Part shown: piece by piece, positions 18,690-37,819 of the stretch
How positions within the stretch are numbered: the stretch's first letter is position 1
Layout: every line of letters begins with the position of its first letter
NCBI GenBank assembly: GCA_015231515.1
Contig: JADGBM010000019.1
Coordinates: forward strand, 1 to 37,881
Source: Desulfobulbaceae bacterium
GTDB taxonomy: Bacteria > Desulfobacterota > Desulfobulbia > Desulfobulbales > VMSU01
Direction: 5' to 3'
DNA: 37,881 bases
Translations under genes and position numbers: made by a program
The notes under the pieces: generated by a model
Seen by the model: the letters and a program-made list of their open reading frames with translations, nothing else
Database searches by the model: none
Told to the model about the DNA's origin: nothing

Positions 18690-18817
18690 CGAAGATAAGC
18701 GCTAGACTTCGAAAAGCCGCTCGACATCCCCGGCTCGCTCTGTAACTAGTTGATTTCATTGAGTGGCACTGAACCTTTTTTGACATTTCGAAGTCTACGC
18801 TATCTGCGAGTTTGTCA
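18690..18817. repeat. Composite inverted-repeat element, copy A (full form)
   Basis: The left arm 18690-18714 and right arm 18786-18808 are near-perfect inverted repeats (22 paired bases, one mismatch and two single-base bulges, centred on GACTTCGAAA/TTTCGAAGTC) separated by 71 bases. A shorter GCCG/CGGC hairpin sits inside (around 18716-18735). The segment 18738-18817 recurs at 22512-22591 with 75 of 80 bases identical and no gaps. The structure resembles a small non-autonomous or REP/MITE-like intergenic element. No flanking target duplication is evident. Confidence 0.75.
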
Positions 18818-22511: not shown

Positions 22512-22591
22512 CTCTGTAACGAGTTGATTTAATTGAGTGGCGCTGAACCTTTTTTGACTTTTCGAACTCTACGCTATCTGCGAGTTTGTCA
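22512..22591. repeat. 80-bp repeat, copy B (half element)
   Basis: This stretch matches 18738-18817 at 75 of 80 positions without gaps, in the same orientation. The left inverted arm of copy A is absent here. Its last three bases (22589-22591) are the stop codon of the minus-strand 186-residue gene, so the element abuts or defines that gene's end. Confidence 0.8.
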
Positions 22592-36179: not shown

Positions 36180-37670
36180 ATGTCTTCTAAGGATGTAAAA
36201 ACTTCCGTCTGGGCCTTCAGCACATATTTTGCGGAAGGCTTTCCATATACAATAATCAGGACGATTTCATCGTTTTACTTTCGGGCTCAGGGCATGAGCC
36301 TCGAAGGACTGGGGGTGACCTCGGTTTTCGGTCTACCCTGGGTCTTAAAATTTCTCTGGGGCCCCCTTGTTGACACCTTTGGCACTAAGCGAAAATGGCT
36401 GCTTTTAACAGAATCCTTACTTTGCTGCCTCTTTGTTCTGACTGCCTTTTTAACCCCGTTAAACCAGGCCGTACCCTTCATCGCAGTGCTGTTCTTTGCC
36501 GGCAGTTTTCTGGCCGCAACCCACGACATTGCCATTGATGGCTTTTATATGGAGGCCTTAAACCTTGAGGAGCAGGCAAAATTTCTCGGTTATCGGGTCA
36601 TGGCCTACAGAATTGCCATGATGACTGGTACAGGTGTCGTCTCAACGGTGGGCGCTGTATATAACTGGACACTTGCCTTCTGTCTGGCAGCAACTATCAT
36701 GATCGCCCTTTTAATACTCAACAATTTCTTACTACCAAAAACAGAGATAGAATCTAAAGCACTCAAAATTCCCTCGGCTCAATTTATTAAAACTCACTCC
36801 TTTAAGATTATCGTAATAGCCTTACTGATCATAAGTCTACGTGCCTTCTCTAACTCAGCATTTTACACTGATCTGCAACAAGACCATTTATTCCTAAAAA
36901 AGCTTAGCTTTCCAGTTCTCATCAGCCTCACTCTTTTTCTTGGCCTGTTTATCGTCTGGCTTTTAAGGAGGCGGTTGCATAAGTTTATCACAGACAATCC
37001 GGAAAGCTTCTATGCCAGGAGTTTTCACTCATTCATCGATCGAGATAAAATAGGCACTATCCTTGGTTTTATAATCTGCATTCGCTCAGGTGAGTATATG
37101 CTATCAACCATGTATTCACCCTTCATTGTTGATTTGGGTCTAAAGACGCATTACGGCTGGATTTCTGCCGGAATTGGACTGCCCTGCTCTATTGTCGGGG
37201 CGATTATCGGTGGCTGGTGTATTGCAAAATATTCACTGAAAAAGATGATCTGGCCTTTTTTGTTTCTACAAAACGTCACTAATTTAATCTATATGTTGCT
37301 GGCCTTAAAACTTTCAGCCCTTGTTACAGCTAATACCGGGGGTGAGATCACGCAGATTGTCACCTCTGAGCAGATTGCCGCGGTTGCAACAGTACATGCC
37401 TTCGATCAGTTCTCAGGGGGGCTCGGCACAGCCGTGCTCATGACGTTCTTAATGCGAATCTGCCTACCTGAGTTTAAGGCCTCGCATTATGCCATTGGCA
37501 CTGGTCTTATGAGTATAAGCGGCTTGTATGCAGGAGTGGTCAGTGGTTTTCTCACCTCCTGGGTAGGATATGGTTACTTCTTTGGGATTAGCTTTCTGAT
37601 CTCCGTTCCAGGCATGTTCCTGGCGGCCTTAATCCCGCATCATTCGTTGGGGGTAAGGGGTAAGGGGTGA
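36180..37670 (+). CDS. AmpG-like MFS permease
   Basis: This 496-residue protein has about 12-14 hydrophobic segments, the size of E. coli AmpG (491). Family-like marks are YFAEGFPYTIIRTISSFYF, LPWVLKFLWGPLVDTFG with KRKW in the second loop, and AATHDIAIDGFYMEAL, close to the ATQDIAID motif I recall in AmpG. AmpG imports anhydro-muropeptides for peptidoglycan recycling, but this superfamily includes other MFS carriers, so the substrate is uncertain. The last residues (about GVRGKG) and the TGA stop are encoded by degenerate units of the heptamer array that follows, so the C-terminus may vary between strains. No strong ribosome site precedes the ATG. Confidence 0.82.
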   Translation: MSSKDVKTSVWAFSTYFAEGFPYTIIRTISSFYFRAQGMSLEGLGVTSVFGLPWVLKFLWGPLVDTFGTKRKWLLLTESLLCCLFVLTAFLTPLNQAVPFIAVLFFAGSFLAATHDIAIDGFYMEALNLEEQAKFLGYRVMAYRIAMMTGTGVVSTVGAVYNWTLAFCLAATIMIALLILNNFLLPKTEIESKALKIPSAQFIKTHSFKIIVIALLIISLRAFSNSAFYTDLQQDHLFLKKLSFPVLISLTLFLGLFIVWLLRRRLHKFITDNPESFYARSFHSFIDRDKIGTILGFIICIRSGEYMLSTMYSPFIVDLGLKTHYGWISAGIGLPCSIVGAIIGGWCIAKYSLKKMIWPFLFLQNVTNLIYMLLALKLSALVTANTGGEITQIVTSEQIAAVATVHAFDQFSGGLGTAVLMTFLMRICLPEFKASHYAIGTGLMSISGLYAGVVSGFLTSWVGYGYFFGISFLISVPGMFLAALIPHHSLGVRGKG

Positions 37671-37727
37671 AGGGTTAAGGGTTAAGGGTTAAGGGTTAAG
37701 GGTTAAGGGTTAAGGGTTAAGGGTTAA
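37649..37727. repeat. Heptanucleotide GGGTTAA tandem array
   Basis: Eight perfect GGGTTAA units occupy 37672-37727. They are preceded by degenerate units (GGGGTAA at 37657, GGGGTGA at 37664 and a G-rich start at 37649). The permease stop codon TGA (37668-37670) is inside one of these. The G-rich strand could form a G-quadruplex, and the unit is similar to, but not the same as, telomeric TTTAGGG/TTAGGG repeats. Confidence 0.97.
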
Positions 37728-37790: not shown

Positions 37791-37819
37791 TTTACATTAG
37801 CAACAACACTATCTATAGT
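37791..37819 (+). promoter_or_regulatory. Sigma-70-like promoter with overlapping palindrome
   Basis: TTTACA (37791-37796) and TATAGT (37814-37819) are each 5/6 matches to consensus at the ideal 17-base spacing. CACTAT-CT-ATAGTG (37807-37820) is a palindrome spanning the -10 element, a likely operator position. Transcription would start near 37826 and serve the gene starting at 37873. Confidence 0.6.

Follow-up and report, generated by a model that had tools for sequence, protein, structure and literature searches.

The permease gene and the heptamer array at its stop codon

The window, one whole contig of 37,881 bp from a draft genome of 225 contigs and 3.4 Mb, carries an MFS transporter gene whose 3′ end runs into a tandem heptamer array (Table 1). 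The product matches Pfam MFS_1 (E=3e-16) and, as its nearest family, the NCBIfam AmpG family TIGR00901 (E=2e-65, under the curated cut-off of that family); on these profile matches the label 'AmpG-like' given in the initial annotation is fair. The gene closes with TCG TTG GGG GTA AGG GGT AAG GGG TGA, followed by AGGGTTAAGGG, and the C-terminal residues of the protein are HSLGVRGKG.

Tandem Repeats Finder delimited the array with a period of 7, the consensus GGGTTAA, 93% matches and 11.0 copies, the copy number being a draft-assembly figure for an array that lies 154 bp from the contig end. The initial annotation had described about eleven GGGTTAA-type units starting within the 3′ end of the permease gene, with its last codons and TGA contained in degenerate units and the G-rich strand equal to the coding strand, and each of these points was confirmed, the TGA falling within the first three units. 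The array is not a product of chance, because the backwards-read control of its 21-mer gave zero matches in its own genome and likewise in all others sampled, and because no array of period 3–12 scored higher in 838 kb sampled from the genome. It contains the four-tract quadruplex motif. A hairpin between the array and the C-rich stretch that follows it was considered and rejected, as its fold was no better than those of shuffled sequences (z −0.9). Elsewhere in the window, an 80-nt sequence occurs twice (18738–18817 and 22512–22591) with 94% identity.

Table 1. Features at the permease 3′ end, in window coordinates
Feature	Position	Strand	Basis or remark
AmpG-like MFS permease	36180..37670	+	496 aa; residues after about 487 lineage-specific or array-derived
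GGGTTAA heptamer array, 11 units	37650..37727	+	Tandem Repeats Finder
Three degenerate proximal units coding the last codons and the TGA stop (37668–37670)	37650..37670	+	Sequence, ORF
Eight perfect GGGTTAA units 3′ of the stop codon	37672..37727	+	Sequence; free to vary, protein untouched
Promoter-like site TTTACA-17-TATAGT	37791..37819	+	Consensus match only, 10/12; may serve next gene
Shine-Dalgarno-like AAGGAGG and ATG (37873), possible downstream gene cut by contig end	37859..37881	+	Sequence; tentative

Unit number and the permease C-terminus

With the stop codon inside the array and a unit length that is not a multiple of 3, the initial annotation had proposed a phase-variable tail, in which 7-base slippage before the stop would switch the C-terminus between alternatives. 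Changes in unit number were simulated by inserting or removing units at the array start and translating the result. Gain of one to seven units yielded permeases of 494–496 aa, removal of one proximal unit 501 aa and removal of two 494 aa. Only the loss of proximal units, of which there are three, changed the protein, and then by five residues at most, all of them past residue ~486–488, where homology to most of the 30 permease loci compared below stops. Every 21-nt stretch of the array (three units) holds a stop in each forward frame, so that translation, which comes in from one fixed frame, terminates no later than about 21 nt into the array; extra units therefore fall behind the stop, and the number of units behind the first stop does not matter to the protein. 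Moreover, only three divergent units precede the stop, the perfect, slippage-prone ones lying behind it. The change of frame or product on unit gain or loss that marks phase-variable repeats was thus not seen for the protein product in simulation, and we consider a switching tail highly improbable.

Permease loci of related genomes

Permease homologues were searched for over 116 genomes of the order, and the best loci fetched comprised the window's own and 29 others, the relatives being 49–65% identical to the window permease. Across the 30 loci, homology stops at permease residue 486–494, mostly at about 486–489, and beyond this point the relatives' permeases end in unrelated short tails. The heptamer array was absent from the relatives' permease loci (30 orthologous loci examined, the window's own included). 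With homology ending before the tail and no relative carrying the array, HSLGVRGKG is array-derived or lineage-specific.

In several relatives a hairpin followed by a T-run lies directly after the permease stop, as read from the printed sequences, and no terminator-like site was found between the window permease stop and the contig end. This contrast would fit an mRNA 3′-end element, in which the G-rich transcript after the stop adopts a quadruplex fold that impedes exonucleases or arrests the polymerase and so replaces the relatives' terminator. The 11 G-tracts on the coding strand could form such a structure, and in Xanthomonas the starts or stops of transcripts are more frequent at arrays able to form quadruplexes (PMC4692102). 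However, the canonical four-tract motif is present in just 11 of the 23 arrays of the genome, and gene starts, at which the transcript would be C-rich, show arrays in the same orientation, so that an RNA function cannot be the general cause. We therefore regard an mRNA element as unlikely, though deserving some weight.

Sister arrays in the same genome

A search of the genome for further GGGTTAA arrays, suggested along with the initial annotation, did find them: pattern and similarity searches gave about 23 G-rich heptamer arrays in all, on some 20 contigs, the commonest units being GGGTTAA, GGGTAAA, GGGTGAA, GGGTTAG, AGGTTAA, AGGCTAA and GGGCTAA. Gene context was assigned with a simple and crude ORF caller that keeps the longest non-overlapping ORFs. 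On this basis 13 arrays have a sense gene on their 5′ side, the stop lying within 20 nt in 10 and being overlapped in 7, and antisense stops lie within 20 nt in 9/14 cases and are overlapped in 2/14. Stop-proximal polarity is hence weak in this genome, weaker than across phyla (see below). The permease is not special, as at least seven arrays of the genome overlap a stop codon.

Stops occur in all three forward frames in 22 of the 23 arrays. Single-substitution variants of the TTAA part keep the stop codon in 26 of 27 cases (as TAAA, TGAA, TTAG or CTAA; p about 0.0003–0.001), in a test where variants that recur in several arrays are not independent, and at position 5 transversions are far commoner than the stop-losing transition, a pattern absent across phyla. 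Such retention might reflect selection rather than neutrality. Across phyla the stop is kept in 30/40 variants (p about 0.2–0.35), and selection for a stop in every unit, which reached significance within the window's genome but not across phyla, was not retained as an explanation. Selection for GGG was likewise set aside after mixed results: at array edges across phyla GGG changes number 64 versus 40 for TTAA, and the window's genome shows the opposite.

Two further observations concern the same genome. A G-rich array followed by an inverted C-rich array lies between convergent genes (L022:3687-3765, G000:C54), and the pair is predicted to fold as a long hairpin (z −3.9). In addition, a second intergenic repeat family of the AACCAATT/AACCAACC type is present (L297:15341-15392, and in L028 3′ of the array).

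Distribution of GGGTTAA-type arrays across genomes

GGGTTAA-type arrays are rare, patchy and often multicopy where found. With the window's genome counted, the array 21-mer was present in 3 of 38 near relatives and in 2 of 395 genomes sampled from the phylum, with no backwards matches in either set, and an array 28-mer was present in 6 of the 397 genomes from the family to which an Allomuricauda genome belongs. Scanning species genomes yielded at least 118 stretches, with hosts in Bacteroidota, Desulfobacterota, Gammaproteobacteria, Chloroflexi and others.

The gap between flhB and flhA holds G-rich heptamer arrays both in the window's genome (L275:4157-4216, G000:C20) and in G016 (L032, G016:C59), which belongs to another family. 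The other 29 members of the order used for comparison have no array in this gap, which suggests that the arrays of the two families were probably born independently at one spot. Genes associated with the Xanthomonas repeats also include flhB (PMC4692102).

Another genome of the phylum, G360, has arrays in which GTTTTAA and GTATTAA units occur together with GGGTTAA (L324, L325, L327, L330 and L331); most of them carry the conserved 3′ flank GGGGTGGATGRGAACGYTTTGATTTTG and look like parts of a dispersed element.

Direction of the arrays relative to neighbouring genes

Gene context was compared in a cross-phylum set of 122 arrays from 68 assemblies, a partial sample to which some assemblies contribute many arrays, and for this reason per-assembly tests were also run. 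ORF calling in this set was crude, the stop distances being independent of start-codon choice, and the array searches required a minimum length, which biases the distribution of array lengths. None of the 122 arrays lies inside a called gene. Where a sense gene lies 5′ of the array (n=52), its stop is found at a median of 4 nt, within 20 nt or overlapped in 41 cases and overlapped in 20; where an antisense gene lies 3′ (n=71), the median is 107 nt and 13 stops fall within 20 nt. The two distributions differ (Mann–Whitney p=2e-10), as do the per-assembly medians (4 vs 97 nt, p=2e-7). The 5′ neighbour is nearer than the 3′ neighbour in 70/95 arrays or, with one vote per assembly, by 38 to 17 (p=0.006). 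Replication in 17 new arrays placed sense stops within 10 nt in 7/7 cases and antisense stops within 20 nt in 2/12. The genes beside array-adjoining stops are almost all unrelated, with five homologous pairs among the 52.

Inverted partners follow the same direction. Of 100 arrays with full flanks, 15 have a C-rich partner no more than 120 nt away on the 3′ side and none has one on the 5′ side, and once the partner is counted in, both gene distances of such pairs are about 10 nt. The 17 new arrays include partners in six rows on the 3′ side and in no row on the 5′ side, two of these rows being the arms of one pair.

The G-rich strand thus tends to point away from whichever gene boundary the array touches, irrespective of the strand of the gene. 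Gene starts and gene ends obey one and the same positional rule, which speaks against a shared cause acting at the mRNA level; since the rule is independent of gene strand, a transcript effect cannot be its general cause, and the rule points instead to a cause at the level of DNA.

A DNA-level cause might be sought in a polar, telomere-like process that lays the bacterial arrays by extending the G-rich strand from gene blocks, with breaks between genes supplying the 3′ ends that receive the repeats and inverted pairs produced by the joining of such ends. Both the orientation of the G strand away from the gene and the exclusively 3′ position of inverted partners, in the main set and in the new arrays alike, are what this process would leave, and the geometry equals that of interstitial or fused telomere repeats. 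Yet units are heterogeneous within arrays, and array starts within 4 nt of stop codons are not explained by breaks alone. The window array is separated from the contig end by 154 bp of non-repeat DNA, the sister arrays sit inside contigs, and the window's genome yielded no telomerase-like, repeat-synthesising or other dedicated template-directed reverse transcriptase. By best score, two of its three reverse transcriptases are group II intron maturases and the third is of retron type, and no heptamer array lies within the few kilobases fetched around them; a reverse-transcriptase origin of the arrays was rejected on these grounds. Polar synthesis is accordingly very unlikely, and if true would imply an enzyme unknown in bacterial chromosomes.

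The retron-type reverse transcriptase (L283:1661-2875, G000:C20) is St85-like, just below the cut-off, with RT_XIII and RT_III-A as best PADLOC matches; it adjoins a nucleosidase-looking protein and is a possible defence retron.

Origin and persistence of the permease array

Dispersal by a mobile repeat that carries the heptamers as passengers would account for the 3′ flank common to most G360 arrays. In the window's genome, by contrast, none of 253 flank pairs reached the similarity threshold on either side and the DNA after the window array is single copy; the unrelated flanks speak against a dispersed mobile element there, and this origin is exceedingly improbable.

The array is probably best explained as one of the roughly 23 dispersed intergenic heptamer arrays of its genome, born in this lineage at the stop codon, grown by slippage and tolerated, and not a phase switch. 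The presence of sister arrays, their absence from the relatives' permease loci and the slight effect of unit changes on the tail all support this account. An array that arose beside the permease stop would have lengthened through replication slippage, a mode of growth proposed for heptamers in literature quoted by PMC4679880 and PMC4692102, and in growing may have taken in the original stop. It would be tolerated because each 21 nt, as computed, closes every forward frame at once, and its persistence would reflect tolerance, not function. Its direction follows the tendency seen in many phyla, and whatever it may do locally to the mRNA 3′ end or to polymerase passage would be minor at most.

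Comparison with known repeat systems

In eukaryotic interstitial telomeric sequences the G-rich strand points away from the flanking DNA block, and inverted pairs lie head to head. The arrays described here resemble them in G-strand direction and in inverted pairs; unlike them, they are bacterial, lie next to gene ends and occur with no telomerase found.

Among bacterial repeats, a literature search with the unit string GGGTTAA itself gave nothing relevant among the papers listed, and three heptamer systems offer comparisons. The GGGACCG elements of Geobacter metallireducens (PMC2700814) are likewise G-rich tandem heptamers that are multicopy in one genome, but have a GC-rich unit and four units per element and occur also inside genes. 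The TAACTGA direct repeats of Beggiatoaceae (MacGregor 2015, PMC4679880) share the heptamer length, the intergenic position, the patchy occurrence over distant lineages, the overlap with gene ends and, as MacGregor noted, stops in all three forward frames; they differ in that they are not G-rich and lie mostly just 5′ of start codons.

The closest counterparts are the quadruplex-forming heptamers described by Rehm et al. (2015), GGGAATC in Xanthomonas and GGGGA(C/T)T in Nostoc (PMC4692102). The GGGTTAA arrays share with these the tandem 7-nt G-tract unit in many dispersed, mainly intergenic copies and a location on the coding strand no more than 50 nt past stop codons, overlaps included. In both, the nearer neighbour is the 5′ one in either orientation, inverted pairs are known and no signature of phase variation is seen (PMC4692102). 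Closeness to the 5′ ORF with stop overlap was found across phyla and is weak in the window's genome; the class is also marked by a preference for four units and by quadruplex formation in potassium (PMC4692102). The differences lie in the GGGTTAA unit itself, in hosts from other phyla and in the stops that this unit, unlike GGGAATC, has in all forward frames when translated by hand; the order of the arms in inverted pairs, with the G arm first, is a count made here. The array thus adds a new unit to a known kind of repeat, that of the G-rich heptamers in Xanthomonas and Nostoc (PMC4692102), and slippage is the most likely way in which it grew. For the permease itself it matters little; for the repeat class it is the direction rule that matters, which was published for two heptamers in two lineages and extends to GGGTTAA in Bacteroidota, Desulfobacterota, Pseudomonadota and Chloroflexota.
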